A stretch of DNA of 64,000 bases, taken from Mucilaginibacter sp. L196 (GTDB lineage Bacteria > Bacteroidota > Bacteroidia > Sphingobacteriales > Sphingobacteriaceae). Position numbers and translations under genes: made by a program. Below the pieces are notes generated by a model. That model saw nothing but the letters and a program-made list of their open reading frames with translations. It did no database searches and was not told the origin of the DNA. The DNA is taken from the NCBI RefSeq assembly GCF_009765905.1, contig NZ_LMUO01000019.1, positions 1,222,292 to 1,286,291 of the forward strand. The letters are read 5' to 3'. Numbering within the stretch: position 1 is the stretch's first letter; the number at the start of each line of letters is the position of its first letter. This document shows, in pieces, positions 1-15,143 of the stretch.

Positions 1-58
1 TCAACATACCTAATGGACTAGGGGTATTAAGTATTTTTTTGCCTTAAACGGCTGATCA

Positions 59-3000
59 TTATCTTGTTGTATTATCTGTTTTACGGTATGCCCATCCAAA
101 AATTAACGGGAATACCCAAAGACTGAATAGCATGGCGCATAATATACCTCCTATAACTACCCTGGCTAACGGCCTTGAACTTTCTGAACCGATACCATGT
201 GATAGTGCTGCCGGGCATAAACCGATAGCGGCCATTAGCGCCGTCATCATTACCGGTCTGATCCTGGAGTTTACACCTAATTTTATGGCGGTATATAGCG
301 TTAACCGGTCGCCTTTTATGGATTCCAGGTTTTGTTTAAATACAGTGATGAGTAATACGCCATCCTGTATACATATCCCAAATAGCGCGATGAAACCGAT
401 ACCTGCTGATATACTAAAATTAGTCCCGGTGATTAACAATGCTGCTATACCACCAACAATCGCAAACGGTACATTCAGGAATACTAGTGCTGCATCTTTA
501 AAATTGCCAAACATGACGAATAACAGTAAAAAGATGAGTGCCAAACTAACTGGAACAACCTGGGTTAACCTTTTTTCAGCACGCTGCTGGTTCTCGAAAT
601 CACCCTGCCAAGCCATGTGGTAACCACGTTTCAGTTTAACTTTAGCATTCACTTTTTGCTGTGCTTCTTTAATGGTGCTACCCATATCCCTACCGCGAAC
701 AGAGAATTTAAGTGTTGCAAAGCGCTCGTTTTCATCCCTAAAAATTAAACATGGACCTGTTTTTTGACTAATATCGGCGATTTCCTTAATCGGAACTTTT
801 GAACCACTTTGGGTAGGAACTAACAGATTTCCAATATCTTCTGGTGTTTCCCGAAAAGCCGCCGGAAAACGTACCCTGATATCAAATGTCCTGACACCTT
901 CATATAGTGTTGATGCCGCCTGCCCGCCTATTGCCATTGATATTACTGCGTTAGCATCGCTGGTTGATACACCATATTGTGCCATTTTTTGCTGGTTCAG
1001 GCTAATATCCAGCTCTGGCAACCCGATACTTCTTAACACGCCTAAATCTTCTATACCTCTTACGCCCTTCAGTATCTTATAAATATCGTCGGTTTTTTGC
1101 TCCATATAGTTAAGCGAATCACCATATACTTTTACCACAATAGAACCCTTAACTCCTGACACAGCCTCCTCCACATTATCACTTATCGGTTGCGAAAAGT
1201 TAAGATCAGCACCAGGGAGTATGGATAGCTTTTTATTCATCTGGGCTATCAGCTCTTCTTTGGTTACCTTGGGTTTCCAATCATCCTCCGGATACATGAG
1301 CACATCAAATTCATTATTATAAAAGCCCGCTACGTCGGTACCATCATCAGGTCGCCCTGTTTGTGACACTACATATTGCACCTGTGGGAAGGTCATTAAT
1401 ATTGATCGTACCTGTTTCGCTGTTTCTACAGATTTGTCGAGTGATACGCTGTATGGTAACTGCACCCTTAGCCAAATGGCACCTTCATCAAGTTCAGGCA
1501 AAAACTCGCTGCCCAAAAACTTAAATGAAAACAGACCAACAACCATCACGATAAGCGACACCGTAACTACCAGTGTTTTATACTTGAATGCCTGGGTAAA
1601 ACCACCAAGCATAAACCGGGTTAGGTTATGCACAAAAGGATTGTGCTTTTCATGTACATCTTTCCTCAATAGCATGCTGATTAATACCGGCACTAATGTT
1701 AATGTTGTTATTAAGGCACCCAGTAATGCGAAACCTAATGTATAAGCCAATGGCGAGAATAATTTACCTTCCACTTTTTGGAAAGCGAACACCGGTAATA
1801 GCCCTGTAATGATAATTAGCTTCGCGAAGAATATGGCTTTACCTAATACGGCGCCATTGTTTTTGATCAACCCAAGTTTGGATAGTTTGTTAAAACGGTC
1901 CATCCCCATTTGTATGGCTTTATGATCCAGAATAACAAACATCCCCTCAACCATAACTACCGCGCCATCAATAATAATCCCAAAATCGACCGCGCCTAAT
2001 GATAACAAGTTGGCCGACATGCCCATTAAATGCAGGCATATAAAGGCAAACAGCAGCGCCATGGGTATTATTATAGACACAATTAGCGTAGTGCGCCAAT
2101 TGAACATGAATAACGATACAAGGAATGTAACAAGTAAAATACCTTCAATAAGATTATGCAATACGGTATGCGTAGCATAACCAATTAGATCGGAACGATC
2201 ATAGTAAGGTACGATCTTGGTATCTGCCGGTAATACATCGTTGTTTAGTTTATTTATCTCAGCCTTTAATGCGGTAACTACATCTGTTGGGTTTTCGCCC
2301 TTACGCATTACAATAATTGCTTCAACGGCATCTTCATCGTCAGTTACATGTCTTTTGCCATCTTTATCAATAGTAGCATCGCTTCTTCCTACCCAGCCCA
2401 AACGCGGTACGTTTGATATAGAAACATTAGCTACATCGCCAACCAAAACGGGTACACCATTATTATTGCTGATGACAATATTTTTAATCTGGTTGATATC
2501 CTTTATCAAACCAAGCCCCCTTACCGCAAATGCCTGGTTATTTTGGATGATCATATCGCCACCAACGTTGATATTGGTTTTTTGTACGGCCGCGAAAACA
2601 TCCAGCGGGGTAATACCTAACGTAGTTAGTTTTCCCGGATCAACCGTGATCTCATAAGTTTTAGTTTTACCACCAAAGCTGTTGATATCGCCTATACCTG
2701 GGATAGCCCTTAACCGGCGGTCAATCACCCAATCCTGTATGGTTTTAAGTTCCCGTACATCTCTGAAAGTACTTTTTAAGGTGTAGCGAAAAATTTCGCC
2801 GGTTGGCCCGGTTGGTGGTTGCACCGATGGAGTAATACCATTAGGCAAGGTAGCGTTGGCCAGTAAGAACATTACTTGCTGCCTTGCTTCCTGATCCTCT
2901 ACATGATCATCAAAAATTACTTTTACATAGCTTAAGCCGAATATGGTAGTTGAACGCAAGCTAACCTTCTTTTGAACCGGGTTTAAAGCGATTTCGATGG

Positions 3001-3211
3001 GAATGGTAACCAGTTTTTCAACCTCCTCGGCGCTTTGGCCGGGCCATTGGGTAATAATATCTATCTCGGTATTGGTTACATCCGGGAAAGCCTCAATAGG
3101 CATCTGAATAAATGTAATTATACCACCTACTATCAATGCTCCTGCTAAAAACAGGATCAGGTATTTGTTTTTTAACGAAAAGCCTATAACACCTCTAAGA
3201 AATTTTATCAT
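59..3211 (-). CDS. HME-family RND heavy-metal efflux pump, inner-membrane subunit (CzcA/CusA family)
   Basis: This is the proton-driven inner-membrane pump of a tripartite metal exporter. At 1050 residues it is full length. It starts with a first TM helix followed by the FPDVTN segment typical of RND pumps, and shows two large periplasmic halves and two TM blocks. The TM4 signature at about residues 403-415 reads DFGIIIDGAVVMVE. In the HME-RND family this DFG...DGA form marks divalent-cation pumps (Zn/Co/Ni), whereas Cu/Ag pumps of the CusA type have a different TM4 sequence, so Zn/Co/Ni export is the better inference. The gene is last in a leftward operon, 17 bases after the adaptor gene and downstream of the TolC partner and a two-component system. 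No truncation is visible and the metal itself is not proven. Confidence 0.95.
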   Translation of the reverse strand: MIKFLRGVIGFSLKNKYLILFLAGALIVGGIITFIQMPIEAFPDVTNTEIDIITQWPGQSAEEVEKLVTIPIEIALNPVQKKVSLRSTTIFGLSYVKVIFDDHVEDQEARQQVMFLLANATLPNGITPSVQPPTGPTGEIFRYTLKSTFRDVRELKTIQDWVIDRRLRAIPGIGDINSFGGKTKTYEITVDPGKLTTLGITPLDVFAAVQKTNINVGGDMIIQNNQAFAVRGLGLIKDINQIKNIVISNNNGVPVLVGDVANVSISNVPRLGWVGRSDATIDKDGKRHVTDDEDAVEAIIVMRKGENPTDVVTALKAEINKLNNDVLPADTKIVPYYDRSDLIGYATHTVLHNLIEGILLVTFLVSLFMFNWRTTLIVSIIIPMALLFAFICLHLMGMSANLLSLGAVDFGIIIDGAVVMVEGMFVILDHKAIQMGMDRFNKLSKLGLIKNNGAVLGKAIFFAKLIIITGLLPVFAFQKVEGKLFSPLAYTLGFALLGALITTLTLVPVLISMLLRKDVHEKHNPFVHNLTRFMLGGFTQAFKYKTLVVTVSLIVMVVGLFSFKFLGSEFLPELDEGAIWLRVQLPYSVSLDKSVETAKQVRSILMTFPQVQYVVSQTGRPDDGTDVAGFYNNEFDVLMYPEDDWKPKVTKEELIAQMNKKLSILPGADLNFSQPISDNVEEAVSGVKGSIVVKVYGDSLNYMEQKTDDIYKILKGVRGIEDLGVLRSIGLPELDISLNQQKMAQYGVSTSDANAVISMAIGGQAASTLYEGVRTFDIRVRFPAAFRETPEDIGNLLVPTQSGSKVPIKEIADISQKTGPCLIFRDENERFATLKFSVRGRDMGSTIKEAQQKVNAKVKLKRGYHMAWQGDFENQQRAEKRLTQVVPVSLALIFLLLFVMFGNFKDAALVFLNVPFAIVGGIAALLITGTNFSISAGIGFIALFGICIQDGVLLITVFKQNLESIKGDRLTLYTAIKLGVNSRIRPVMMTALMAAIGLCPAALSHGIGSESSRPLARVVIGGILCAMLFSLWVFPLIFGWAYRKTDNTTR

Positions 3212-3228
3212 TTTCTGTATATGTTATA

Positions 3229-4332
3229 TTAACTATTTAATGAACCGTAAATAAGTATGGCGTTTGATGCTACAACACGTTCGCCGGGCTTTAAACCACT
3301 CTGGATATAAGCGGTTATGCCATTGTTACTGATGAGCTGCACCGGCCTTATCTCTACGTTATTTTTACCGGTAAGCACCACTACATAATACTGGCTGTTA
3401 TCGAAAACCAACGATTTTGCTGATACCGAAATAGCGGTTCTGTTCTCGTTGTTCTCCAGTGTTACGGTAGCAAACATTTGTGGTTTTAATAAATAACCAG
3501 GGTTAGGCAATACAATGCGCATTTTTAATGTTTTTGTTGCCGGATCAAGCGCATCCATCATCTTATCTACTTTACCTTTAAACACTTTATCAGGATAAGA
3601 AATGGTAGTTACATCAACAGAATCGCCTTGATGTACTTTACCAATATTACCCTCGTAAACGTTGGCCTGCACCCACACATTTTTAAGATCGGATATAGTA
3701 AATAAGCCAGCGTTATTATCGGGACGAATAGCCATGCCATTGGTGATATTCATCTGTACAATAAAACCGTCTATTGGCGCTTTTATCAAATACTCGCCAT
3801 TGGTATTGTTACCGTTAATGCTTAATATCTTTTCAGCAGCAGTTTTGCCAGCTACCGCCTGTTCATAAGCAACCTCGGCGTTAGTAATATCTACTTGCGA
3901 TGCAAGCCCGCTTTTAAATAAGTCTTTTTGTTGCGAAAGTTGTTTAGCGGTAAGCTGCACATTGGTTGCCGCGGTTATTAATGCCGAATTGTAATTTGCC
4001 ACCTCGGCACTTTTCACTACGCCTAATACTTGCCCCTGTTTTACAAAATCGCCGGGTACTACATTTACTCCCTGTACATTACCGCTAACCAGCGGGAATA
4101 CGTTTACAACTTTGTCTGTATTAAAATCTACCAGTCCATTAAATTTAATGGCATCGGTTATGTTGGAGGTCTTTACTGTGTCGACAACAAGTGTTTTCAT
4201 CAGTGAATCCGGCACTACGTAAGGCGCACGCGTGTCTTCTGTTGCCTCTTGTCTGTTACATGAAAAAACAGTGAGCAGCAGCGCGAGTGACGAAAGTAGC
4301 GGAAGGCTATATTTAACGATTGATTTATTCAT
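3229..4332 (-). CDS. Efflux RND periplasmic adaptor (membrane fusion lipoprotein)
   Basis: This 367-residue membrane fusion protein bridges the RND pump and the TolC channel. The N-terminus has a lipoprotein signal with a lipobox ending at Cys25 (TVFSC), so the mature protein should be lipid-anchored. It then shows a barrel-sandwich/biotinyl-lipoyl-like segment around VVPGDFVKQGQVLGVV, a helical hairpin (about residues 120-165), a second half-lipoyl segment (YLIKAPIDGFIVQMNI), and a beta-barrel with C-terminal domain. This is the usual order for HlyD/CusB-type adaptors. There is no obvious His/Met-rich metal-binding extension at the N-terminus. It lies between the TolC gene (20 bases upstream) and the pump gene (17 bases downstream), consistent with one transcript. 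Confidence 0.93.
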   Translation of the reverse strand: MNKSIVKYSLPLLSSLALLLTVFSCNRQEATEDTRAPYVVPDSLMKTLVVDTVKTSNITDAIKFNGLVDFNTDKVVNVFPLVSGNVQGVNVVPGDFVKQGQVLGVVKSAEVANYNSALITAATNVQLTAKQLSQQKDLFKSGLASQVDITNAEVAYEQAVAGKTAAEKILSINGNNTNGEYLIKAPIDGFIVQMNITNGMAIRPDNNAGLFTISDLKNVWVQANVYEGNIGKVHQGDSVDVTTISYPDKVFKGKVDKMMDALDPATKTLKMRIVLPNPGYLLKPQMFATVTLENNENRTAISVSAKSLVFDNSQYYVVVLTGKNNVEIRPVQLISNNGITAYIQSGLKPGERVVASNAILIYGSLNS

Positions 4333-4352
4333 GGAGGTGGTTGATAGATATT

Positions 4353-5630
4353 TTATTGATTAAAAAAAGGTGTGCCCGTAACGTAGTTCAGTTGCTCAAG
4401 CGAGATAACCCTGCTTAAAAGCTGATTATTGATGAGTAACGTGTTGGTTTTGTAGGTATCATAATAATCCAGGAATTCCAGTAAACCAATATTCCTGTTT
4501 TCATAATTTTTATATACCTCTGCTATCAAGTGCGAAAACTCGGGTTTAAACTTAGGATCAAAACTATTGGCCATTTTTTCCTGTGTAAGTGCCATTTTAT
4601 AATTGGTAGCCACATCGCTTTCAACCTGGTCTTGCTGGCTTTGCAACTGCACTTTACTTTGATCGATGGCAATACGTGCCTGCTTAATGCTGCCCTGGTT
4701 GCGGTTAAAAAACGGAAGATCAAATGATATACCTCCGCCTAAATAATCATTACCATATCCACCCAATTTGTCAAAACCTAAGGAAACAGAAACATCAGGT
4801 ATAGCGGTAGCTTTTTGTAGTTGCAGATTAACATTATTGTAATCAACTGCCACCTTAGCCAATTTATAATCATAGCGGTTAACATATGCCGAATCAAGCA
4901 ATTGCTGATAAGAAACAGTTGCCAAAACATCCTGACCAGTAAGATCAGAAGATACAATAGGATTGATTGTTGTGCGTGGCGGTAATTTTAACAATAACTT
5001 AAGCTGACTTTCGGTAGTATCTATCCCGGTAATTAAACCAGTGTATTCTACCTGTAAAGAATAAAGCTGGGCTTGTATACGAAGGAGTTCCTTTTCAGCA
5101 ATATTTCCTTTAGCATATTGTTCTTTGTAGGCCACCAATGTTTTGCTTAATGAGCTTATTTCCTCGTCATAAACTTTAGCCGATTGTTGCTGATAATAGA
5201 TGGTGTAAAAATCATTTCTCAGCGTAAACTTCAGCGTTCTTAATAAATCGAAAAACTGATACCTGGATTGTGTGATGCCCAATTTAGCAAGCTGTATGTT
5301 TTTATTACGTTTACCTGCGGTGGTTAACAATTGAGAGATACCGTAAGATTGTTCGTTATAAGCAGGGCCATTACTTACATTATTGGCGTAAATACCATTC
5401 GAGAAATTAAAATTTGGATTATTAAACAAACGGGCGGTTATTAGCTGCGCGCTGGCATTATCAATATTATAATGATTGATAATTAAGCTTAGGTTGTTTT
5501 TAATAAATTGATCTTCGGCTTGTTTTACGGTAATGCTAACCGTATCAGTAGCGGTTTGCGCACGGGCAGATTGGGATAATGTTAAACACCCAAACCATAT
5601 AAATAGGATACCGATATTTTTTATGTACAT
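4353..5630 (-). CDS. TolC-family outer-membrane channel of the metal exporter
   Basis: This is an outer-membrane efflux protein of the CzcC/CusC type, with alternating helical and strand segments of the TolC fold over about 425 residues. I place the start at the ATG at 5630, giving a signal peptide (MYIKNIGILFIWFG...SARAQ). An upstream ATG at 5687 lies inside a probable promoter -7 box (5685-5692), so a start there is unlikely. It is the first gene of the pump trio and is followed after 20 bases by the adaptor gene. The promoter and a cluster of CATTAGA motifs lie immediately upstream, so the trio probably has its own regulated promoter separate from the regulator genes. Confidence 0.92.
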   Translation of the reverse strand: MYIKNIGILFIWFGCLTLSQSARAQTATDTVSITVKQAEDQFIKNNLSLIINHYNIDNASAQLITARLFNNPNFNFSNGIYANNVSNGPAYNEQSYGISQLLTTAGKRNKNIQLAKLGITQSRYQFFDLLRTLKFTLRNDFYTIYYQQQSAKVYDEEISSLSKTLVAYKEQYAKGNIAEKELLRIQAQLYSLQVEYTGLITGIDTTESQLKLLLKLPPRTTINPIVSSDLTGQDVLATVSYQQLLDSAYVNRYDYKLAKVAVDYNNVNLQLQKATAIPDVSVSLGFDKLGGYGNDYLGGGISFDLPFFNRNQGSIKQARIAIDQSKVQLQSQQDQVESDVATNYKMALTQEKMANSFDPKFKPEFSHLIAEVYKNYENRNIGLLEFLDYYDTYKTNTLLINNQLLSRVISLEQLNYVTGTPFFNQ

Positions 5631-5684
5631 GCTGCAAATTGTATAAACCGGCGGCAGTACGTTTTTGAACGCCATCCGATATAA

Positions 5685-5692
5685 CAAAGGTA
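5685..5692 (-). promoter_or_regulatory. -7 box of the efflux-trio promoter
   Basis: Read leftward, this octamer is TACCTTTG, a perfect match to the Bacteroidota -7 consensus TAnnTTTG. It predicts a transcript start near 5681 and a leader of about 50 bases to the ATG at 5630. No good -33 TTTG is seen at the expected distance, which fits an activator-dependent promoter. Confidence 0.55.
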
Positions 5693-5715
5693 CATGGCTC
5701 TTATTAGCGAATACT

Positions 5716-5763
5716 TAATCTACCATTAGAGATACATTAGATGTACATTAAAAAATTCTAATG
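5716..5763 (-). promoter_or_regulatory. Candidate response-regulator operator upstream of the TolC gene
   Basis: CATTAGA occurs at 5724-5730 and 5735-5741, and CATTA at 5746-5750. The copies start exactly 11 bases apart, as is typical of OmpR-family direct-repeat sites. The inverted form TTCTAATG lies at 5756-5763. The core TAATCTACCATTAGA (5716-5730) is nearly identical to the site at 7894-7907 upstream of the regulator gene. Confidence 0.5.
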
Positions 5764-5792
5764 TCGGCGAAAATCTTGTGTGTATAAGGGTA

Positions 5793-7133
5793 CTAATTGG
5801 GGAATATCAGGTGAAATTCAGTGCCTGTATCAACAACAGAATTTACTACAATAATCCCATTATGGTATTTTAAAACGTTTTGTGTTAACGAAAGGCCAAT
5901 ACCATGCCCCGCATAATTAAGCGCATTAGAAGCCCTGAAAAATGGCTGGAATATATTTAAAATATCCTTTTGGGTCATACCTATACCCTGATCGCGTATT
6001 TTAATGTTAATGCCGACTTCGTTGCAAAACAATTCACAAAAAACATCTTTGCCATCTGAAAATTTGACGGCGTTTTTAATCACATTATTAATGCCAATAA
6101 ATAATAACCTGCGGTTACCCATTATGGTGCATTTTAATCTGTCATTAGGAATGTTGTAATCGATCTTTACTTTATCGTTATCAAGTTCATCTACAATCTC
6201 CCAAAGTAGTTCATCCATCCTAACACTTTGAAGCTCATAATGAGCCAGGTCCATCTGCATCAGGTCCATCAGGCTATTAATAATCTCATTTAAGCCTTCA
6301 GTCTCTTTAATAATATTTACCAATGTTAGTTGATACTCTTCTTTTGGCCGTTCATGAACCAATGTGGTTTCTGCCTCGCCAAGTATAGTGGTTATAGGGG
6401 TGCGCAACTCATGCGAAGCGTTGGCGATAAATGATTGCTGGCTCTCGAATGATTGTTCAAGGTGTTCTAATAACTTGTTAATGGTAAGCGAAAGATTATC
6501 AATTTCATCCGTTTTCCGTTCAGCTACCGGCAACCTCAGATCGAGGCTTGATGCCCTTATTCTTTTCAAATTTCCCGTAATGCTTACAATTGGGTGTAAT
6601 GCGATCTTTGAAAAGATCTTCCCAATAAAAAATGTAATGAGTAGTGAAGCCATAAAAAAGAAGACCATTACAAGGCTTAGATCGTGCAGATAATGGTATC
6701 CTGCTTCATCAACTGCAGAAACGATCACAATAAAATTACCTGAGTTGTCTACATAATAAATACCTGTAACCTGACGGTTGCCTTCGGAGAAATGAATTTT
6801 TTTCTGCTCGATAACCTGTTTCAAAATGCGCCTATCCCAATGAACAGAATCCTCAGGAATAAATTTAGGCTGATAGTGATCGGTATATATCCTGATGTTT
6901 TCACTCGCTAACGATTGCGGGAATTTTTCAATGACGCTTTTGAAATTCTCCTTCGACAGGTTGTCTTCTGCCAGATAGAATTGCGCTACGTTAATGGCCC
7001 GGTCATCTAGTTTGTCAAAAAAGGTGTTAACCCTATTGTGCCCGGCAAATAGGAATACGCCTGTTAAAACCAGCAACAGCAACAGGGCAAACATAAAAGT
7101 AAACTGAAAAGATAATCTGTCTTTAACTTTCAA
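5793..7133 (-). CDS. Sensor histidine kinase of the metal-efflux locus
   Basis: This 446-residue membrane histidine kinase has TM1 near residues 10-30, a periplasmic sensor of about 120 residues, TM2 at about 150-175, a HAMP linker, and a HisKA H-box (ASHELRTP, His near residue 243). The HATPase domain shows an N-box (NNVIKNAVKFS) and G-boxes (IRDQGIGM and HGIGLSLT). All catalytic motifs are intact. It should phosphorylate the response regulator encoded immediately upstream, with a 16-base gap. The order response regulator, kinase, then efflux trio is typical of CusRS/CzcRS-type systems. Sensing of periplasmic metal is inferred from context. Confidence 0.93.
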   Translation of the reverse strand: MKVKDRLSFQFTFMFALLLLLVLTGVFLFAGHNRVNTFFDKLDDRAINVAQFYLAEDNLSKENFKSVIEKFPQSLASENIRIYTDHYQPKFIPEDSVHWDRRILKQVIEQKKIHFSEGNRQVTGIYYVDNSGNFIVIVSAVDEAGYHYLHDLSLVMVFFFMASLLITFFIGKIFSKIALHPIVSITGNLKRIRASSLDLRLPVAERKTDEIDNLSLTINKLLEHLEQSFESQQSFIANASHELRTPITTILGEAETTLVHERPKEEYQLTLVNIIKETEGLNEIINSLMDLMQMDLAHYELQSVRMDELLWEIVDELDNDKVKIDYNIPNDRLKCTIMGNRRLLFIGINNVIKNAVKFSDGKDVFCELFCNEVGINIKIRDQGIGMTQKDILNIFQPFFRASNALNYAGHGIGLSLTQNVLKYHNGIIVVNSVVDTGTEFHLIFPN

Positions 7134-7149
7134 TCTAAACCTCCCGTGT

Positions 7150-7821
7150 TTAATCTTTTATCATATAACCCATGCCGATTACCGTATGGATTAATTGACT
7201 AGGATAGCCTTTATCAACTTTGGCGCGCAAATAATTAATGTAAACATCGATAAGATTGGTGCCGCGGTCGAAATTTATACCCCAAACAGACTCCGCTATA
7301 TAAGTTCGTGATAAAACACGGTTCTTATTGTACATGAGTACTTCAAGCAAGATAAACTCTTTTACAGTTAGCAATATCAAATTGCCGCTTCTGGTAACTG
7401 TTTTTCGATAACAATCCATTTGCAGGTCAGCTACTTCATAAACAGTCCCGGGTAGTATGGCCGATCTGCGTCTGTCAAGTGCTTTTATCCTGGCAAGTAG
7501 TTCTTCAAAGTGAAAGGGTTTGGTTAGATAGTCATCGGCTCCGCTTTCCAAACCTCTAACTTTATCATCTACCGTTCCGAGGGCACTTAGCATTAATATG
7601 GGTAACTCTTTTTTAAATTGCCTTATTTGTTTGCAAACTTCAAAGCCATTTAATTCAGGTAGTACTGCGTCAAGTATAACTAATTCAAAATCTGATTCGA
7701 GCGCCATCTTGCGTCCCATGTTGCCATCATATGCCAAAGTAACTTTGTGGAATTGTTCTTCGAGGCCTTTTTTTATAAAGGCGGCAACTTTGGGTTCATC
7801 TTCAATTAACAAAATATTCAT
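7150..7821 (-). CDS. OmpR-family response regulator of the metal-efflux locus
   Basis: This DNA-binding response regulator has about 223 residues from the ATG at 7821. The receiver domain shows the acidic pair (IEDE), the phospho-acceptor Asp51 (VILDAVLPE) and the Lys of the TKPF motif. The C-terminal winged helix is complete (LTVKEFILLEVLM ... DVYINYLRAKVDKG). An upstream in-frame start would lie in the promoter region (a -7 box is at 7847-7854), so 7821 is preferred. It probably controls its own gene, the efflux trio and the outer small-protein gene through the TTAGAA/CATTAGA motifs found at all three promoters. Confidence 0.93.
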   Translation of the reverse strand: MNILLIEDEPKVAAFIKKGLEEQFHKVTLAYDGNMGRKMALESDFELVILDAVLPELNGFEVCKQIRQFKKELPILMLSALGTVDDKVRGLESGADDYLTKPFHFEELLARIKALDRRRSAILPGTVYEVADLQMDCYRKTVTRSGNLILLTVKEFILLEVLMYNKNRVLSRTYIAESVWGINFDRGTNLIDVYINYLRAKVDKGYPSQLIHTVIGMGYMIKD

Positions 7822-7846
7822 AGTGGGGTTTCTATAAAATCTTTTG

Positions 7847-7854
7847 CAAAGATA
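7847..7854 (-). promoter_or_regulatory. -7 box of the regulator/kinase promoter
   Basis: Read leftward this is TATCTTTG, a perfect TAnnTTTG match. The predicted start is near 7843, giving a leader of about 22 bases to the ATG at 7821. An inverted repeat lies about 27 bases further upstream. Confidence 0.5.
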
Positions 7855-7880
7855 CCCCAAGTATCTATGCCAGTATTATA

Positions 7881-7918
7881 AATTAGAACTTTCTAATCTA
7901 CATTAGAAAGTTCTAATT
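7881..7918. promoter_or_regulatory. 17-bp perfect inverted repeat, candidate autoregulatory operator
   Basis: The arms are 7881-7897 and 7902-7918 with a 4-base loop. Each arm is itself nearly symmetric (TTAGAA, CT, TTCTAA). The centre TAATCTACATTAGA repeats the motif found at 5716-5730. It lies between the receptor gene's stop and the regulator gene's -7 box, so it could also act as a terminator for the receptor gene. The matching motif at the other promoters favours an operator. Confidence 0.5.
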
Positions 7919-7967
7919 TGCAAACAATGGATTTAACGCTTAATCCTTATGCTACACACGCCTTAAT

Positions 7968-10448
7968 TTACTGTGTTATGACGGGTTTATTTTCTGTACT
8001 GCCAAAGGGGAATACTAATTTAAAACTGATATTTCTACCCATGTTATAAATACCCTGATTTTGCTTGGTTACAGTAACCGGCGTACCGTTGTACGATAGG
8101 AAGTATTGTGCCAGGTTCAGGTGATCAGCGTAAGCCACATTAGTTAAGTTGGTACAATTAGCGAAGAATGAACATATCACTCTGCCTGTTTTTCGGTTCA
8201 CAAAATTAGTTCCTATACCGGCGTTAAACAAAGTATATTGTGCAGCAGGCACTTCGGTATAAAGCGCGCTGTATATATTATTCTGCGCCCAATCATGCTG
8301 AACTCCGAACTTAAAGTAGGTGCCTTTTATAATTGAATTACGCCCATCGTTCAACCGTAATTTAATTTCAGAAGTTAAATGCGGGGCCGGTATCCACGGA
8401 AGATGACTGGTTGAATCAGACGCGTTGGGGATATGAGAATAGATATACGTGAAGCCATTATCTATCTCTAACCATCTTGCAGCTGCGGGATGTATATTCA
8501 GGTATCCTGAAACGCCGGTAATAATAGCGGTATTAGAAGATACATATTGGTAAACCGGGTACCCCTCCGAAACAGAATCGGTACGGTTAGCGAATATAAA
8601 GTTGCTGATGTGGTTATAAAAACCGTCTGCTTCTACACTTACATCTTTGCCATCGTAACCGTAGGCAAAATCTATCTGGTAACCTTGTTCAGCTTTCAGG
8701 TTAAGGTTACCTAATTGCACTGCATTTGAGCCAATATTTAAACCATTGCTGGTTAATTCATTAATGGCCGGTGCACGATAACTTTTTGAAATATTAAGCT
8801 TTACGTAATTATTGTCAGGCAATTGGTAGGATGCTCCAATACTTCCGGACGGGCCGGTATATTTATTATTGAAACCTGTAAATTGAACATCAGATCCAGG
8901 TGTCCCCGGTGGCACAATGTTACCGGCACTGTTCAACGACATCGGATCTCCTACAAAATCAGTCCGGTCAAAGCGAACCCCACCGCTAAGCGTTAAGTTT
9001 TTGAAATTTTTCTCCAGTACAACATACCCTCCTATCTCAAAATTGGTGTAATTAGGTATTTCATAATCAGCTATGTAAGGCGCTGGTGGCGCTGCCCCAT
9101 TATTCTGAAATTCGTAAATACCGTTAATGCCGGTGGTTAGCTTCAATCCAGAATGCTCGCCTGCTATCTGGTATTTTAAAGAGTAAGGAATATCATTAAC
9201 CAATAGATTGCCTGACCCAATGCGTCCGGTATCTATGTCATGGTGAATACTTTTGGTAAAGCCAACATCCAGGCCAATTCTGCCTTTGCCAACGTTCACA
9301 CTATTTTGCCACCAGGCTTGGTATTCGTCCAAAACCTTATCCCCGGCTATATCAGCGCTGTAGGATAAAAAGTCAGATCCTGTTGGATATATTTTACCAT
9401 TTTGAGGTGAGTCGAACATAAAACGCCCTGTACTATCGCGATTGCCATCAGGAACTTCTATCCTACGGTGCAATGCGCTTAGTGTAAGGCGCGAATAACC
9501 CCATGATTTGTTGATACCAAGTATTAAACGGGTATTAGTTTGATTCCATGCTGTTCCCCAAACATAACCATCTTTTGGATTGGAGTAACTATGTGCCTCC
9601 TCTCCGCTTGCAGTCAGTGCCCATACAAATCCATTATGATTACCTGCTACATGTACAGAGGTCCCAAGGAATCCATTATTGGTATGATATTCTGTAAGCA
9701 CGCTACCTTGTACAGTCCCATTTTCAGGTAAGGGCTCAGATTTAAAGCTTATAACCCCGGCTTCTGCACTGGCACCATATTGTAATGAAGCCGGGCCACG
9801 AATAATCTCTGCATCATAAACACCATAAGGATCAACCAGTAAACCATGATCATCCCCCCATTGAAAATCTTCTTGTGGTACGCCATCCATCAATGTTAAT
9901 ACCCTGTCAAACCCAAGTCCGTTAATCTGCGGCTTGGTGGTGCCTGCCCCCTCGGTTGTTTCACTAATACCCGGTTGTGAGGCTATTAAGTCGACAGCGG
10001 TATTGGCAACACCTTGCAAAATCATGTTGTGTGTTACCACCGATATAGGTATAGGGGCGCGCTTTTTGGTTGTTGTATTGCCCAAAGCTGTTACCACAAC
10101 ATCCGAAAGCTCATAATTTGAAGCTGATAGTTTAAAATCGACTGAGTAGGTATTGCTCAGATTAATCATTTTGGTAACACTGCCATAGCCAATTGCTGAT
10201 ACCTGCATAAGGTATTCGCCTTCCGGTAGTTGTTTTAATAAATAGTTGCCTTTTTCGTCCGTACTTGTCCCAATATTTAAATCAGGAATAAAAATAGTCG
10301 CGCCATGTATTGGCAAGCCGGTAGTTTTATTGGTTATATTTCCGGTTATGCTTCCGATGCCTGTTATGGTTTTTGCTTTAGCGAAAATGCTAATGCACAG
10401 AAACAACAGGATGTAAAATGTTCTTATAAATCGTAATTCAAATTTCAT
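7968..10448 (-). CDS. TonB-dependent outer-membrane receptor with CarboxypepD_reg-like N-domain
   Basis: This is an 826-residue TonB-dependent transporter. It shows a signal peptide, a carboxypeptidase-regulatory-like beta domain (about residues 30-115, TGNITNKTTGLPIHGATIF), a plug domain (about 130-240, with the RGPASLQYG motif), and a long beta-barrel ending in an aromatic residue region (NISFKLVFPFG). It probably takes up a metal or metal-chelate, inferred from its place between the small Cys-rich proteins and the two-component efflux genes. There is no SusD partner, so it is not a glycan SusC. A His/Asp-rich stretch in the plug (QWGDDHG) is suggestive only. Its stop is 107 bases upstream of the inverted repeat/promoter of the regulator gene. 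Confidence 0.9.
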   Translation of the reverse strand: MKFELRFIRTFYILLFLCISIFAKAKTITGIGSITGNITNKTTGLPIHGATIFIPDLNIGTSTDEKGNYLLKQLPEGEYLMQVSAIGYGSVTKMINLSNTYSVDFKLSASNYELSDVVVTALGNTTTKKRAPIPISVVTHNMILQGVANTAVDLIASQPGISETTEGAGTTKPQINGLGFDRVLTLMDGVPQEDFQWGDDHGLLVDPYGVYDAEIIRGPASLQYGASAEAGVISFKSEPLPENGTVQGSVLTEYHTNNGFLGTSVHVAGNHNGFVWALTASGEEAHSYSNPKDGYVWGTAWNQTNTRLILGINKSWGYSRLTLSALHRRIEVPDGNRDSTGRFMFDSPQNGKIYPTGSDFLSYSADIAGDKVLDEYQAWWQNSVNVGKGRIGLDVGFTKSIHHDIDTGRIGSGNLLVNDIPYSLKYQIAGEHSGLKLTTGINGIYEFQNNGAAPPAPYIADYEIPNYTNFEIGGYVVLEKNFKNLTLSGGVRFDRTDFVGDPMSLNSAGNIVPPGTPGSDVQFTGFNNKYTGPSGSIGASYQLPDNNYVKLNISKSYRAPAINELTSNGLNIGSNAVQLGNLNLKAEQGYQIDFAYGYDGKDVSVEADGFYNHISNFIFANRTDSVSEGYPVYQYVSSNTAIITGVSGYLNIHPAAARWLEIDNGFTYIYSHIPNASDSTSHLPWIPAPHLTSEIKLRLNDGRNSIIKGTYFKFGVQHDWAQNNIYSALYTEVPAAQYTLFNAGIGTNFVNRKTGRVICSFFANCTNLTNVAYADHLNLAQYFLSYNGTPVTVTKQNQGIYNMGRNISFKLVFPFGSTENKPVITQ

Positions 10449-10471
10449 ATATCTTTTCCATATAAGAATGT

Positions 10472-10486
10472 AATTACCCGGTAATT
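10472..10486. promoter_or_regulatory. Short palindrome upstream of the receptor gene
   Basis: AATTACC and GGTAATT form perfect 7-base arms around one base, about 25 bases upstream of the receptor start. It could be a regulator site and does not match the TTAGAA motif. Significance is uncertain in such AT-rich DNA. Confidence 0.25.
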
Positions 10487-10612
10487 GACCCGAGAATTAT
10501 CTTTCTATGTAATTCCTAAGCAAAAAATGGTTTGCTAATTCATGTTGTCAGCATAAATAATGTTGGCAAATTGCCGAACAAAAGATTAGGGAATATTGCC
10601 CCTATTTCTTAT

Positions 10613-10996
10613 TTAAGCTACAGATTTAGGTGGTTTGAAAATGGAAGATAAATAACGACTGGTGTATTGATAATCAAAAACCGGGAAACCTGCTGATAAT
10701 GTATCAATTATCACAGGCTCAGAAAATGTAATGCAAAACGGCTGTATAAAAGACATTTCGAGCCTGCTTGAACCATCTTTGGCAGCTTGCTTTTTATCGT
10801 TGTCTTCGGCTTGTTTAATTTTTCGCATAAAGTAGCATTTTCCGTTACAATGCAGACTGGGTTTAAACCTGTTTATGCAAAGATTAGCCGCTATATATTG
10901 CTGATTGAATTTAAAACCTACATATACAAACACCAGGGAGAAGTTAGCGGCAAAAACCGCGAAAATCAGAAACCATATGGTGAATCGTTTGAGCAT
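10613..10996 (-). CDS. Small membrane-anchored Cys/His protein with HCNGKC motif (unknown function)
   Basis: This 127-residue protein has one N-terminal TM helix (LKRFTIWFLIFAVFAANFSLVF) and a conserved core with Cys, His, two further Cys and Met: LCINR...LHCNGKCYFMRKIKQAE, about residues 43-65. A Lys-rich helix and a divergent tail follow. It is clearly a paralogue of the product of 11655-12032, sharing Y(I)AENLCIN, HCNGKC and FMRKIK. The Cys/His/Met pattern could bind a soft or borderline metal, which is inference. It lies just upstream of the TonB receptor gene, on the same strand, and 27 bases after the lipoprotein gene. I do not recognise a named family. Confidence 0.8.
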   Translation of the reverse strand: MLKRFTIWFLIFAVFAANFSLVFVYVGFKFNQQYIAANLCINRFKPSLHCNGKCYFMRKIKQAEDNDKKQAAKDGSSRLEMSFIQPFCITFSEPVIIDTLSAGFPVFDYQYTSRYLSSIFKPPKSVA

Positions 10997-11023
10997 GTGT
11001 ATGTTTAAATAGAATTGATGATA

Positions 11024-11527
11024 TTACATTTTCATCTTATGATCAAGCGCTATCGCGGCAGTAGGTTTAATATTCAATTGCTTTAAATAATCATCAGATA
11101 GCTTTAAGGCAGATTGATACAAGCTATCAAGTTTTGCAACCTTAGCTTTCTGATCAATAAAATAATCTAGTGTTTCCTGATCTGTTTTCCCTTTAAAATC
11201 GTTGTTATAGGTATGCATCCAGCTTTCCATCTGGTCGTCTGCATCGCTAAGCTCTTTATTTAATGAGATAATTTGAACCCTTACCGCAGCGGTATCCAGT
11301 GCAGGCTGGCTAACTGTTACCTTATTTAAGCCTGATTTGAGCAATGCATTAAACTGCATTTCCTTATCTTCGGCCTTACCCCCATCAGTCATTACTTTAT
11401 CATGCATGGTCAATACTTGTTTTTGGGCTTCTGTGTAATCAATTTTGTTTTTACAAGCTGAGATGAATATAAAGCTGCATACAGCTAATAAGGCCATAGC
11501 CGTGCCTTTTTTTGAAATAGTAAACAT
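11024..11527 (-). CDS. Helical lipoprotein of the metal module (unknown function)
   Basis: This 167-residue protein has a lipoprotein signal ending in the lipobox ISAC (about residue 25), followed almost entirely by predicted helices. A His-Asp-Lys-Val-Met segment (MHDKVMTDGG) and a MESWMHTYN segment give a sparse His/Met pattern, and the tail is HKMKM. In Bacteroidota such small helical lipoproteins occur beside metal-linked TonB receptors. A periplasmic metal-binding or sensing role is only inferred. It lies between the two paralogous HCNGKC genes, so the three probably act together. Confidence 0.75.
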   Translation of the reverse strand: MFTISKKGTAMALLAVCSFIFISACKNKIDYTEAQKQVLTMHDKVMTDGGKAEDKEMQFNALLKSGLNKVTVSQPALDTAAVRVQIISLNKELSDADDQMESWMHTYNNDFKGKTDQETLDYFIDQKAKVAKLDSLYQSALKLSDDYLKQLNIKPTAAIALDHKMKM

Positions 11528-11654
11528 ATTATTCGTTTAAAATGAATCCACACTTAATGCTATCGTATCGCCCGTTTATACCAGCAATGAATGCATTAAA
11601 TTAAAAATGAGATTTTTGTGCCGCTGAATATAACAGCTAAAGTCTAAAGGGTAA

Positions 11655-12032
11655 TTAAACGACTTTTGGGGGTAATAATATGGAATATGCACGCTGAATG
11701 GTTTCAGGTGTTTCAGTATCTGGATAAGATACTTTTATATTTTTTGTGGAAAATGCTATAGTTGACACAGGTTGCACTACCGGAAGTGCTTCCTGGTAAT
11801 GATTTTGTTGGTCGGCCCTACCCTGCTTTTTTTCGTTATCCTGTGCTTCTTTAATCTTTCTCATAAAGAAACATTTCCCATTGCAGTGCATCCAGGGCTT
11901 GTTTTTATTAATGCAAAGATTTTCAGCTATGTATTTTTGATTCAACTCAAAACCTGCATATATGAAGAAACGTGAAAAGTTTGAACTGATCAGTGTTACA
12001 AGCAAGCATATGGAGATTATCCGTTTGAGCAT
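11655..12032 (-). CDS. Second HCNGKC small membrane protein (paralogue)
   Basis: This 125-residue protein has an N-terminal TM helix (LKRIISICLLVTLISSNFSRFF) and the same core as the product of 10613-10996: a Cys in LCINKN, then MHCNGKCFFMRKIKEAQ. The C-terminal tail diverges. It is the first gene of the leftward module. A -7 box (12038-12045) sits almost against the start codon, so the mRNA may be nearly leaderless, and TTAGAA motifs lie behind it. Metal binding is inferred from the Cys/His/Met spacing and from context. Confidence 0.8.
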   Translation of the reverse strand: MLKRIISICLLVTLISSNFSRFFIYAGFELNQKYIAENLCINKNKPWMHCNGKCFFMRKIKEAQDNEKKQGRADQQNHYQEALPVVQPVSTIAFSTKNIKVSYPDTETPETIQRAYSILLPPKVV

Positions 12033-12037
12033 TTGCG

Positions 12038-12045
12038 CAAAGGTA
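12038..12045 (-). promoter_or_regulatory. -7 box in front of the first module gene
   Basis: Read leftward this is TACCTTTG, identical to the box in front of the TolC gene. The predicted start lies only about 2 bases before the ATG at 12032, implying a leaderless or nearly leaderless transcript. Confidence 0.45.
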
Positions 12046-12065
12046 ATTGATATAGCAAGCGATAA

Positions 12066-12096
12066 TTAGAATTGTTTCTTTTTAGAATCGTTCTAA
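12066..12096. promoter_or_regulatory. TTAGAA motif cluster upstream of the first module gene
   Basis: TTAGAA occurs at 12066-12071 and 12082-12087, and its inverse TTCTAA at 12091-12096. The cluster starts about 21 bases upstream of the -7 box, similar in placement to the clusters at 5716-5763 and 7881-7918. Confidence 0.4.
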
Positions 12097-12212
12097 ACAG
12101 TATATTTTCTATAAGAATTTGCCTGAAAATAATGGCCATTGTTAGCAAAGTAATCGTACGAAGAAAAGCAATCATGTAAAGTTTGCGGTTGCTTCATTCT
12201 TAATAAGAATCC

Positions 12213-12290
12213 TTGTCATTCTGAGAGACGAAGAATCTGTACAGTAGTATCCAATCGTGCAGATTCTTCGCTGTCGCTCAGAATGACAAT
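12213..12290. repeat. Dispersed intergenic hairpin (TGTCATTCTGA family), copy 1
   Basis: Imperfect inverted arms begin TTGTCATTCTGAG and end CTCAGAATGACAA. The arms contain GAAGAATCTGTAC and GTGCAGATTCTTC. A second, perfect copy is at 26170-26244. The 331-base gap 12033-12363 otherwise holds only the promoter of the leftward module and the E2 terminator. Confidence 0.7.
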
Positions 12291-12314
12291 TGGGAATAAC
12301 AAAAAATATTATTT

Positions 12315-12354
12315 AAAACAAAAAAGATTTCCGTGAAGAAATCTTTTTTGTTTT
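12315..12354 (-). terminator. Terminator of the E2 gene
   Basis: Perfect 17-base arms (12315-12331 and 12338-12354) enclose a 6-base loop just past the E2 stop. The leftward strand ends in a T-rich run, as expected of an intrinsic terminator. Confidence 0.8.
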
Positions 12355-12363
12355 ATGAGGAGT

Positions 12364-13836
12364 TTATATTTCTCTATTGGGATCCCAGTTCTCTAAGTAA
12401 TCGGCTACTTTCTTTACGAACATCCCGCCCAGGGCACCATCAACCACACGGTGATCGTATGATAATGACAAGAACATCATATGACGAATACCTATCATAT
12501 CACCCTGTTTAGTTTCAATTACAGCAGGCTTCTTTTTTATGGCACCTACTGCTAATATAGCCACCTGTGGCTGGTTGATTATTGGCGTACCCATTACGTT
12601 ACCAAATGAGCCTACGTTTGTGATGGTAAAAGTACCTTCTTTTACATCATCAGGTAGTAGCTTACTTGTACGGGCGCGATTTGCTAAATCATTAACCGCT
12701 TTGGTTAAACCAACCAGGTTAAGTTCATCAGCCTTTTTAATAACAGGCACTATCAGGTTTCCGTTTGGTAAGGCAGTAGCCATGCTGATGTTAATATCCT
12801 TCTTTTTAATGATTTGCGTACCGTTAACCGATACGTTTATCATCGGGAAATCTTTAATAGCTTTTACAACAGCTTCAATAAATATTGGGGTAAAGGTGAT
12901 TTTTTCGCCTTCCCTGGCTTCAAATTTATCTTTAACCCTATCACGCCATTTAACCAGTGATGTAACATCAGCTTCAACAAAAGATGTTACGTGTGGTGAT
13001 GTATGCTTGCTATAAACCATGTGCTCAGCAATCAGCTTACGCATACGGTCCATCTCGATAATTTCAATTTCACCGGAAACTGAGGTCACTTTTGGCTCAG
13101 GTTTTGGCTGAGGAGCAGGTTGGGGTTTACTTTCAGGAGCGGTGGCTTTTTGCTCTGCAACAGGTTGAGCTTGCGATTTTGGCGAGCTAAAAACAGGCGC
13201 TTGTTGAGCAGTTACGGTTGCGGCAGCAGGTTGGCTTACAGATCCATTTCCTGATCTGTTTTGTATATAAAGCAACAAGTCATCTTTGGTTAAACGACCT
13301 TCGGCGCCTGTACCGGGTATCCTATCAAGTTCAGCAACACCAATACCTTCTTGTGAAGCAATGCTTCTAACCAGTGGAGAGTAAAATCTTACATTATCAT
13401 TAACCGGTGAATGATTTACCGGAGCTGTGTTTTGATTTAATTGTTCTGTACCCGGTATAGCATCAAGGGTTGCGATTGCTGGTTCCTGTTCTTTAACTTC
13501 AGGCGCAATAGGTGCAGATTCTTTTACTGCTACAGGTTCAGCAATAACTTGTGCTGGGGTCTCAATAGCATTAGTTGCAACTGTTTCACCAGCTTCCTGG
13601 GTTTCTATTACAGCTATAACAGCACCTACCTGTACAACATCGTCTACATTATAAAGTTGTTCTACCAATGTACCTGATACAGGCGATGGAACTTCTGAAT
13701 CAACTTTATCGGTTGCAATATCCATTACCGATTCATCGGCTTCAATATAATCGCCCGGTTGCTTTAACCATTTGATTATTGTTGCTTCTGCAACACTTTC
13801 GCCCATTTTTGGTAACAATAGCTGATATTTGGCCAT
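12364..13836 (-). CDS. Dihydrolipoamide acyltransferase (E2) of a 2-oxoacid dehydrogenase complex
   Basis: This 490-residue E2 component transfers acyl groups from lipoamide to CoA. It shows one lipoyl domain (residues 2-76, lipoyl Lys in TDKVDSE), a long Pro/Ala/Gln-rich linker, a peripheral subunit-binding domain (about 150-190, SPLVRSIASQEGIGVAELD), a second flexible linker, and a catalytic domain with the SYDHRVVDGALGG active-site motif (His and Asp) near residue 460. A single lipoyl domain and this order fit branched-chain or 2-oxoglutarate type E2 as well as pyruvate E2, and sequence alone does not settle the substrate. No E1 or E3 gene is adjacent. A terminator follows it and cinA lies upstream on the same strand. 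Confidence 0.93.
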   Translation of the reverse strand: MAKYQLLLPKMGESVAEATIIKWLKQPGDYIEADESVMDIATDKVDSEVPSPVSGTLVEQLYNVDDVVQVGAVIAVIETQEAGETVATNAIETPAQVIAEPVAVKESAPIAPEVKEQEPAIATLDAIPGTEQLNQNTAPVNHSPVNDNVRFYSPLVRSIASQEGIGVAELDRIPGTGAEGRLTKDDLLLYIQNRSGNGSVSQPAAATVTAQQAPVFSSPKSQAQPVAEQKATAPESKPQPAPQPKPEPKVTSVSGEIEIIEMDRMRKLIAEHMVYSKHTSPHVTSFVEADVTSLVKWRDRVKDKFEAREGEKITFTPIFIEAVVKAIKDFPMINVSVNGTQIIKKKDINISMATALPNGNLIVPVIKKADELNLVGLTKAVNDLANRARTSKLLPDDVKEGTFTITNVGSFGNVMGTPIINQPQVAILAVGAIKKKPAVIETKQGDMIGIRHMMFLSLSYDHRVVDGALGGMFVKKVADYLENWDPNREI

Positions 13837-13882
13837 ACAAAAATTATATAGTTAGTCTGGTCAAAATTAATCAAAGAATAGT

Positions 13883-15139
13883 TTACTTTCCACTATCTTT
13901 TATTAAATTATTCAACATAATTAATGCTGAAATGGCGCTTCTTTCGATGTTTTGCGCACGCTTGTTACCAAATGTGAATTTCTTTACCTGTGTTTTACCC
14001 TTAGTTGCTACTCCTATCCAAACTGTACCTACGGGCTTATCTTCGGTGCCGCCATCCGGGCCGGCAATACCTGTTACCGCCAAGGCATAATCAGACTTAA
14101 AAGCATGCAACGCGCCTTCAACCATCTCTGTAACAGTTTGTTCGCTAACAGCGCCATATTGTGCTAAAGTTTCGGGTTTAACACCCAACATGCTTTCTTT
14201 TAATTCATAAGAATAGCTTATCGCTCCACCTAAAAACACTTTTGACGCACCCGGATGTTGGGTTATCAAATGCGATATATATCCTCCGGTGCAACTTTCG
14301 GCAATGGACAGGGTTTGGCCTTTTTTGTCCAGAATATTCAGTATAACCTTTTCAAAAGGTATATCTTCTTCGGCTACTACTACATTTCTAACACGCTCAA
14401 TTATCCGTGCTGAAAATTCATCCACTTTATGTTGTAGTAAAGTTTCATCCTCGCCATAGGCACTTAACCTTAAACGAACCTGCCCCGGTTTGGGTAAATA
14501 AGCTAATTTAACATCCGATGGTAAATCATCTTCAATATCAGCAATCCTGGTGGCTAAATAAGATTCTCCCTCTCCAGCCGTTAAAATAGTTTTATGAATG
14601 ATGAAAGGTAGTTTCAGTGTAGCCTTTAATTTGGGTATTACCTCTTCCTCTATCATATACATCATTTCGAAAGGCACACCTGGCATCGATACATAAATCT
14701 TACCTTTGTAATTAAACCACATACCCGGCGCAGTGCCATTATTGTTCAGGATAACTTCGCAATTCTCGGGTACCAAGGCCTGTTGCTTGTTAATATCAAG
14801 CATAATGGCATCTTCACCCCTGATCCGTTTAAAAATACGCTGAACATTTTCAAGAGCTTCTTTATTCTCAATTAGTCCAACACCAAAATAGGTAGCAAGG
14901 GTTTTCTTGGTAATATCATCTTTTGTTGGCCCTAGGCCGCCGGTTATCAGGATAATATCAGCCCGGCCCGCAGCTTCATCTAGCGCGGTTAAAATATGTT
15001 CACGATCATCAGATACCGATGAGATTTGCTTTACACTGATACCCGCATTGTTTAACTGACGGGCTATAAATGCTGAATTTGTATCAACAATTTGGCCTAT
15101 TAATATTTCGTCGCCTATGGTTATTATTTCTGCAAGCAT
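13883..15139 (-). CDS. CinA-family protein (competence/damage-inducible, NMN deamidase type)
   Basis: This is a 418-residue two-domain CinA. The N-terminal MoaB/MogA-like domain (residues 1-170) has ITIGDEILIGQIVDTNSAFIA and ITGGLGPTKDD. The C-terminal CinA domain (about 260-415) has SIAESCTGGYISHLIT and AVTGIAGPDGG. Characterised relatives are NMN deamidases or ADP-ribose pyrophosphatases in NAD recycling, and which activity applies here cannot be read off. It lies 4 bases downstream of lptD on the same strand, so the two are probably cotranscribed. Confidence 0.92.
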   Translation of the reverse strand: MLAEIITIGDEILIGQIVDTNSAFIARQLNNAGISVKQISSVSDDREHILTALDEAAGRADIILITGGLGPTKDDITKKTLATYFGVGLIENKEALENVQRIFKRIRGEDAIMLDINKQQALVPENCEVILNNNGTAPGMWFNYKGKIYVSMPGVPFEMMYMIEEEVIPKLKATLKLPFIIHKTILTAGEGESYLATRIADIEDDLPSDVKLAYLPKPGQVRLRLSAYGEDETLLQHKVDEFSARIIERVRNVVVAEEDIPFEKVILNILDKKGQTLSIAESCTGGYISHLITQHPGASKVFLGGAISYSYELKESMLGVKPETLAQYGAVSEQTVTEMVEGALHAFKSDYALAVTGIAGPDGGTEDKPVGTVWIGVATKGKTQVKKFTFGNKRAQNIERSAISALIMLNNLIKDSGK

Positions 15140-15143
15140 AATA

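Follow-up and report, generated by a model that had tools for sequence, protein, structure and literature searches.

Two-component systems that respond to metals, the 6-4-6 boxes of their regulators and PhoB-type arrays of half-sites are all known in kind. For Escherichia coli PhoB, the distance to the -10 element is 10 nucleotides (nt). Pho boxes have been reported to consist of 11-nt direct-repeat units that are bound head to tail (PMC4415409). The footprint of AgrR from Cupriavidus metallidurans is described as a 6-4-6 repeat with the hexamer ATTACA, accompanied by further direct half-sites in phase; this regulator is reported to act by type II activation and to regulate itself positively (PMC7380067). 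CusR proteins of E. coli and Pseudomonas are reported to bind palindromes (PMC11195947), and the sigma-A consensus of Flavobacterium has been given as a TAnnTTTG box at -12 to -5 (PMC9723704). Here we compare these systems with a putative metal-export locus of Mucilaginibacter sp. L196, which lies in a 64,000-nt stretch of contig NZ_LMUO01000019.1 (the window). The locus is transcribed from the minus strand in the order small1, a lipoprotein-like gene, small2 and a TonB-dependent receptor gene (the cassette), followed by a response regulator and a histidine kinase gene, and then by tolC, cusB and cusA (the pump). Coordinates are window positions; the 5.3-Mb genome of the window (G000) is called the own genome, other genomes of the genus carry G numbers and loci carry L numbers.

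Like the boxes of AgrR, CopR, CusR and PcoR from C. metallidurans, Pseudomonas and E. coli, the locus contains 16-bp inverted repeats of 6-4-6 build, at three places (Table 1), together with in-phase direct half-sites, and as in those systems autoregulation would be combined with an efflux or resistance operon, which for the present locus is a prediction (PMC7380067, PMC11195947). The hexamers themselves differ: instead of ATKACA / TGTMAT we found ATTAGA / TCTAAT, which matches ATTACA-N4-TGTAAT with the C changed to G. The locus further differs by having five or six half-sites in a strict 11-bp register and by their docking on the TAnnTTTG element of the Bacteroidota sigma factor, not on a -10/-35 promoter. 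With PhoB-type class II activation it shares the 11-nt direct-repeat units (PMC4415409), whereas the regulator and the half-site are different ones and the array starts with an inverted repeat. Judged from the sequence, the promoter geometry appears to be a Bacteroidota form of PhoB-style activation. In open-licence papers we found no prior description of the half-site spelling, the array length or the docking on TAnnTTTG, nor of the geometry of an activator on a Bacteroidota TAnnTTTG promoter.

The reading that we favour, and consider likely, is an autoregulated metal-export regulon that stands beside a separately controlled TonB cassette. We infer that the kinase would activate the regulator when a divalent metal (zinc-type, not copper) rises in the periplasm, and that the regulator would bind ATTAGA-N4-TCTAAT inverted repeats together with in-phase half-sites. 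At the tolC promoter it would fill five or six half-sites, from the inverted repeat to the one next to TAnnTTTG, replace the -33 element and recruit RNA polymerase in the manner of PhoB-type class II activators, so that tolC-cusB-cusA is switched on. At its own promoter it would bind two palindromes 27 nt from the box, resulting in autoregulation. The cassette would be a separate unit under a different regulator, most likely a Fur-family protein, that reads TTTAGAA-N3-TTCTAAA.

The half-site array in front of tolC

Upstream of tolC, five half-sites follow each other in an 11-bp register at a fixed distance to the -7 box TACCTTTG, as in PhoB-type class II arrays; the last half-site is 10 nt away from the box, and the distal end of the array is formed by the inverted repeat ATTAAAAAATTCTAAT. 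The first-pass annotation, made from the letters of the window, had noticed CATTAGA copies 11 bp apart at this promoter. These copies are real, but they make up about half of the array, which comprises the five half-sites and an inverted partner, and the 20-30 bases that had been given between cluster and box do not hold for the nearest half-site.

Spacers between the kinase gene and tolC were aligned with the box as anchor. Nineteen loci were examined, namely those of the 18 regulator-bearing genomes (own included) and of the paralogous system of the own genome (L040). G083, G064 and G070, where tolC gave no match beside the kinase, were left out, and the spacers used were those of the own genome, 14 genus orthologues and L040. 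TAA stood in register at 74 of the 80 positions of these 16 spacers, and the maximum in 2000 shuffles was 11. When ten other phases were examined, eight gave 0, whereas 13 were counted at +3 and 2 at +4. Two spacers contained two candidate boxes (G033, G166), and here the choice fell on the box that had a half-site where one was expected; no such choice was made for the shuffles. TAnnTTTG was present in 15 of the 16 spacers, while G166 has TACCTTCG instead.

The array could also be recovered without gene information. The pattern TAAT-N7-TAA-N7-YTAAT-N10-TAnnTTTG, allowing no mismatch, matched 104 of 149 genus genomes, the source genomes of the pattern included, and its reversed control matched none. 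Exactly two matches were found in the own genome, at the tolC promoters of both systems (window and L040). One matched place was examined in each of the first 30 genomes with loci: 16 precede tolC with the kinase gene just upstream, the place in G083 follows a kinase gene without tolC, 10 precede TonB-receptor-like genes, 7 of them carrying TAACAT half-sites, and 3 precede unrelated genes. The loci with the same 11-bp/10-nt geometry before TonB-receptor-like genes are L178, L184-L186, L188, L193, L194, L196, L199 and L200; these promoters possibly form a Pho regulon. Over the whole class, the pattern was found in 26 of 395 genomes, and the reversed control gave 3 places. Among 30 class places, 12 match tolC by BLAST (7 from the same genus, own included, 4 from another genus of the family and 1 from another family), a response regulator is matched three times, at about 30% identity, and cusA once, and 1 place precedes a gene with a PBP domain (PstS-like). 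At the class place L290 a TolC match lies below the cut-off, and L291 begins alike; no assignment was obtained for the others.

Among named relatives of the regulator (the first 50 of 80 tabulated), all five half-sites were kept in 4 of 4 Pedobacter loci, which lie outside the genus, and in 8 of 11 named Mucilaginibacter loci, largely the same genomes as in the genus set; L241 (57% identity) has four of five. TAnnTTTG is absent from the spacers of L220 and L244, and in the loci shown for Elizabethkingia and Myroides the kinase has no tolC match beside it.

We lean slightly towards a docking rule that would apply throughout the Bacteroidota. OmpR/PhoB-type regulators would sit on half-sites in an 11-bp register that ends 10 nt from TAnnTTTG, replacing the -33 element, and the spelling would be specific for the regulator (TCTAAT for metal pumps, TAACAT-like for TonB-receptor or Pho-like genes). 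If the rule is true, two-component regulons could be readable from raw sequence with few false positives, and placing activators in this way would allow such regulons to be predicted in a phylum where few have been mapped. The docking geometry also offers a direct spacing test of the contact between regulator and Bacteroidota RNA polymerase.

Tandem palindromes at the regulator promoter

The promoter of the response regulator gene contains, upstream of its -7 box TATCTTTG, two 6-4-6 palindromes that jointly make up one perfect inverted repeat, whose 18-bp arms (7880-7897 / 7902-7919) flank a 4-bp centre. A 17-bp perfect palindrome had been noted here in the first-pass annotation; the site consists of two 16-bp palindromes within these longer arms. 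They are the only exact matches to ATTAGAANNTTCTAAT in the own genome. With one mismatch two more appear, the tolC site (Table 1) and one at contig C8:916647, and with up to two mismatches there is no excess (44 matches versus 61 for the reversed control, per strand). Within the window, ATTAGAANNTTCTAAT has 2 exact matches and 3 within one mismatch, where 100 dinucleotide shuffles gave means of 0.01 and 0.06, respectively.

An ATTAR-N6-YTAAT palindrome was found 26-28 nt from the box in 15 of the 18 regulator-bearing genomes, at exactly 27 nt in 13, and the tandem arrangement was present in 10 of the 18 in relaxed and in 8 in strict form (own included throughout). Farther away, 10 of the 50 named relatives have an exact ATTAGA-N4-TCTAAT within 200 nt before the regulator gene and 6 have it with one mismatch. 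The exact cases include a Sphingobacterium metagenome-assembled genome (MAG; 61% identity) and two Elizabethkingia (65%), in which the repeat stands about 65 nt before the gene.

When the tandem pattern was searched with up to three mismatches, 12 places in 10 of the 149 genomes were obtained, and 1 with the reversed control. In the own genome a fourth regulator-type tandem with the same 27-nt spacing (C8:916637-916697) precedes two outer-membrane-like proteins of 539 and 545 amino acids (region L041:8638-12067, contig C8:916637-920066), the first of which had no Pfam or NCBIfam match; G131 also has a tandem site of this kind. In G123, a genome without a regulator orthologue at E 1e-95, a tandem palindrome with 2 mismatches (L089:8548-8583) stands before a 425-amino-acid protein.

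Clusters of this type might arise by chance in AT-rich intergenic DNA: the half-sites are short and AT-rich, the palindrome pattern with two mismatches does not rise above its reversed control, and the window holds 73 TAnnTTTG boxes on both strands, so that a box alone is weak evidence. Within 150 nt of a start, TAnnTTTG occurs at 3 of 8 module genes, which are tolC, the regulator gene and small1, and at none of cusB, the kinase, TonB receptor, small2 and lipoprotein-like genes. The shuffles and the reversed patterns speak against chance, as do register and spacing that are conserved across species; chance is refuted for the tolC and regulator sites and can be given practically no weight as an overall explanation. 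An OmpR-type array at tolC and an autoregulatory-type site at the regulator gene, as proposed in the first-pass annotation, are both conserved with their genes as predicted sites. They are probably conserved switches for the pump and for the regulator itself.

A different box at the small1 promoter

All three motif clusters of the first-pass annotation, and the TAnnTTTG boxes next to them, were recovered at their places, and two of the boxes are indeed identical, TACCTTTG occurring at both tolC and small1. The idea of one motif at three sites holds for the tolC and regulator sites but not for the third site, TTTAGAATCGTTCTAAA, which has a spacer of 3 instead of 2 and other outer bases than the regulator sites. 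An extra half-site TTCTAATT (12064-12071; TTAGAA at 12066) is found in the own genome only and in none of the six other small1 orthologues.

Orthologues of small1 with at least 72% identity exist in 7 of the 149 genus genomes, own included, and the promoters of all seven were read. Five match TTTAGAANNATTCTAAA exactly, G114 has one mismatch and G148 has a 16-bp variant. In all seven, the third box lies 35-37 nt from the -7 box and the -7 box lies 5 nt from the ATG (12032-12045 in the window); because the -7 box ends so close to the ATG, the small1 transcript is probably leaderless or nearly so. The third box is still kept in G114, G115 and G023, where small1 lies away from the regulator. G009 carries the cassette and the pump genes (98-99%) on different contigs, and the kinase gene is truncated by the end of the contig that holds the pump genes.

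With one mismatch, the third-box pattern occurs in 149 of 149 genomes, in many of them above the reversed control. Thirty places were read. The gene that follows is nuoB at six of them, sdhC at another six and a cytochrome c gene at three; at least three further places lie at a hemA/MauE-like pair, a TonB receptor gene and small1 account for one place each, and the remaining ones precede various genes or lie inside open reading frames (ORFs). For nuoB, sdhC, cytochrome, hemA and TonB receptor, a single representative was checked with profiles, and the other genes were assigned by their first residues. NuoB and SdhC pass the NCBIfam cut-offs, and the domains of the cytochrome, hemA product and receptor pass those of Pfam; the best NCBIfam model for the receptor is a siderophore-receptor model, below its cut-off. 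Additionally, a related copy of the third box lies 55 nt before another such TonB receptor gene in the own genome, which encodes three Fur-family proteins.

Boxes of the Fur family (Fur, PerR, Zur) follow a 7-1-7 inverted repeat with an AATNATT core. Measured against this consensus, three of the seven orthologues fit NNNNAATNATTNNNN at the third site (TTAGAATNATTCTAA or one mismatch from it); the core is present in G023, G114 and G115 and absent in the own genome, G131, G009 and G148. The own genome, G131 and G009 have AAC instead of AAT at the centre, and the G148 box is shorter. Similar boxes before nuoB, sdhC, cytochrome and hemA genes suggest a Fur-family regulator for the third site, and this family is the most likely candidate.

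In the earlier model the response regulator would bind the third site as well and control the TonB/small-protein cassette, so that import, binding and export form one autoregulated regulon. The half-site TTAGAA/TTCTAA is indeed common to all three sites, and a spacer of 3 is found in the distal regulator palindrome of three orthologues; yet the distinct spacer, outer bases and 35-37 nt distance of the third site are kept even where small1 is located elsewhere, and nuoB is preceded by similar boxes in genomes that lack a regulator orthologue at E 1e-95 (for example G067, G069 and G072). The cassette lies beside the regulator/pump module in the own genome and in G131, that is in 2 of 18 regulator-bearing genomes, and 6 of the 7 small1-bearing genomes also carry the pump module, G148 having only a paralogue-type system; against this, no orthologue of small1 at E 1e-45 was found in 13 of the 18. 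Around other regulators no cassette genes were found in the available loci, of which those of G146, G064 and G070 cover only about 1 kb upstream. The co-occurrence of small1 and module makes a functional link between cassette and pump module possible, but since the own genome, G131, G114 and G009 are close relatives, it represents at most three lineages.

A single regulon over three sites was rejected for the third site, which differs in its spacer, its outer bases, how far it lies from the box and its orthologue context, and we regard the earlier model as improbable. Its claim that the regulon includes the import/binding cassette is not supported, as the promoter of the cassette has a different box, which follows small1 elsewhere and resembles the boxes of respiratory and iron genes. 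The motif search across related genomes that had been proposed as a check showed the tolC array and the regulator palindrome largely kept with their genes, but revealed the small1 site as a separate box. The third site being a different kind of switch, the locus reads as an export regulon whose neighbour is under control of its own. Adjacent import and export genes with look-alike motifs thus need not form one regulon.

Several observations weigh against the export regulon with a separate cassette. Close relatives do not provide independent counts. Three of the 18 genomes (G103, G104, G007), whose tolC arrays are intact, lack the regulator palindrome, and 8 of the 18 lack the tandem; among the 16 arrays, those of G117 and G023 retain three of five half-sites, and six distant MAG loci (L221, L222, L229, L231, L232, L236) retain 2-3 of 5. 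Matches to the third-box pattern in the own genome show no enrichment over the control (4+5 = 9 versus 5+3 = 8), and those to a relaxed pattern show none either (18+14 versus 20+14), so that the argument for a separate box is based on other genomes and on orthologue conservation. In G115, G026 and G029 the distal regulator palindrome measures 17 bp, with one extra spacer base, and hence the spacer alone does not exclude binding of the regulator at the third site. Finally, an array of the same type precedes the tolC gene of the nearest regulator paralogue in the own genome (56% identity, other pump), and arrays may therefore be shared.

More than one metal response regulator would then act on the arrays, this one and the 56% paralogue (contig C8) cross-regulating both pumps via an 11-bp TCTAAT code. 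The own-genome pattern matches only at the tolC promoters of the two systems, and for Pseudomonas a single palindrome has been reported as common to three regulators (PMC11195947), whereas the paralogue's own locus has no ATTAGAANNTTCTAAT match within two mismatches and the flanking bases of both arrays differ. We treat such sharing as a tentative and somewhat doubtful proposal; it would add to the autoregulated export regulon and is compatible with it. In front of the paralogous regulator gene (L040, about 7806) there is a short ORF recognised as transposase-like and no palindrome, as if an insertion had replaced the promoter.

The exported metal and the genes of the locus

By sequence, the closest solved structure to the pump is ZneA (726 bits), followed by CusA at 527 bits. 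ZneA has the acidic residues E136, D602, E610 and D654 at its proximal site, and all four appear to be kept in the pump, as read from the alignment. The Met triad of CusA has been given as M573-M623-M672 (PMC8092243); at the aligned positions the pump has L, N and E. The missing triad and the apparently retained acidic residues make zinc or a similar divalent metal likelier than copper, so the exported metal is probably of the zinc type, and copper is disfavoured as the pump metal since the Met triad is missing. Like the zinc-type RND exporters CzcCBA and ZneCAB, the locus has a three-gene RND pump behind a two-component system, with TIGR00914 passed and ZneA as closest structure. Different from these, its kinase and regulator score under the NCBIfam cut-offs for metal subfamilies: the best model of the kinase is TIGR01386, heavy metal sensor kinase (162.6 bits, cut-off 292.55), and that of the regulator TIGR01387, heavy metal response regulator (248.8 bits, cut-off 279.2). 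Among named contigs, the nearest regulators come from a Bacteroidetes MAG and from Mucilaginibacter strains.

Table 1 Genes and predicted promoter elements of the locus, in window positions
Feature	Position	Strand	Remarks
RND pump gene, cusA/czcA type	59..3211	-	TIGR00914 877.5 bits, above the curated cut-off of 701.45
Periplasmic adaptor gene, cusB/czcB type	3229..4332	-	PF16576 and TIGR01730 above cut-off
tolC-type outer-membrane factor gene	4353..5630	-	PF02321; start inferred; in-frame TTG at 5687 (ORF 4353-5687)
-7 box of tolC promoter, TACCTTTG	5685..5692	-	
Half-site array, 11-bp register	5703..5763	-	half-sites 5703-5707, 5714-5718, 5725-5729, 5736-5740, 5747-5751; nearest one 10 nt from box
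6-4-6 inverted repeat (16 bp) ATTAAAAAATTCTAAT, distal array end	5747..5762	.	one mismatch to ATTAGAANNTTCTAAT; inverted partner ends at 5762
Sensor histidine kinase gene	5793..7133	-	PF00512, PF02518
OmpR/PhoB-family response regulator gene	7150..7821	-	PF00072 receiver and PF00486 Trans_reg_C, both above cut-off
-7 box of regulator promoter, TATCTTTG	7847..7854	-	
6-4-6 palindrome, promoter-proximal	7882..7897	.	27 nt from box; exact match to ATTAGAANNTTCTAAT
Second 6-4-6 palindrome, 20 bp farther up	7902..7917	.	exact match to ATTAGAANNTTCTAAT
TonB-dependent receptor gene, import cassette	7968..10448	-	PF00593, PF07715, PF13715
Small protein 2 gene (small2), HCNGKC type, cassette	10613..10996	-	
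Lipoprotein-like gene, cassette	11024..11527	-	named from first residues
Small protein 1 gene (small1), HCNGKC type, first cassette gene	11655..12032	-	
-7 box of small1 promoter, TACCTTTG	12038..12045	-	kept in 7 of 7 small1 orthologues (own included)
17-bp box TTTAGAATCGTTCTAAA (TTTAGAA-N3-TTCTAAA, spacer 3)	12081..12097	.	35 nt from TACCTTTG; read as separate Fur-like site

At E 0.001, neither Pfam nor NCBIfam gave a match for small1, small2 or the lipoprotein-like protein. Both small proteins are of membrane type and have the conserved motif C..N...HCNGKC in common. In 93 of the 120 genomes searched, small1 has relatives at E 1e-5; the HCNGKC proteins are possibly an uncharacterised metal-binding family that occurs beside TonB receptors. 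A scan of window positions 1-20000 with Rfam gave no family at the gathering threshold. In the leader of the TonB receptor gene (10449-10560), a block like TTAGAATT..AAATAAGA is followed later by TTCTTA, with a GC-richer stretch between them, an arrangement that by eye is kept in five genomes. Farther upstream of the cassette, at 12214-12290, an inverted repeat around CATTCTGAGAGACGAAGAATCTG / CAGATTCTTCGCTGTCGCTCAGAATG resembles, again by eye, a dispersed REP-type element.

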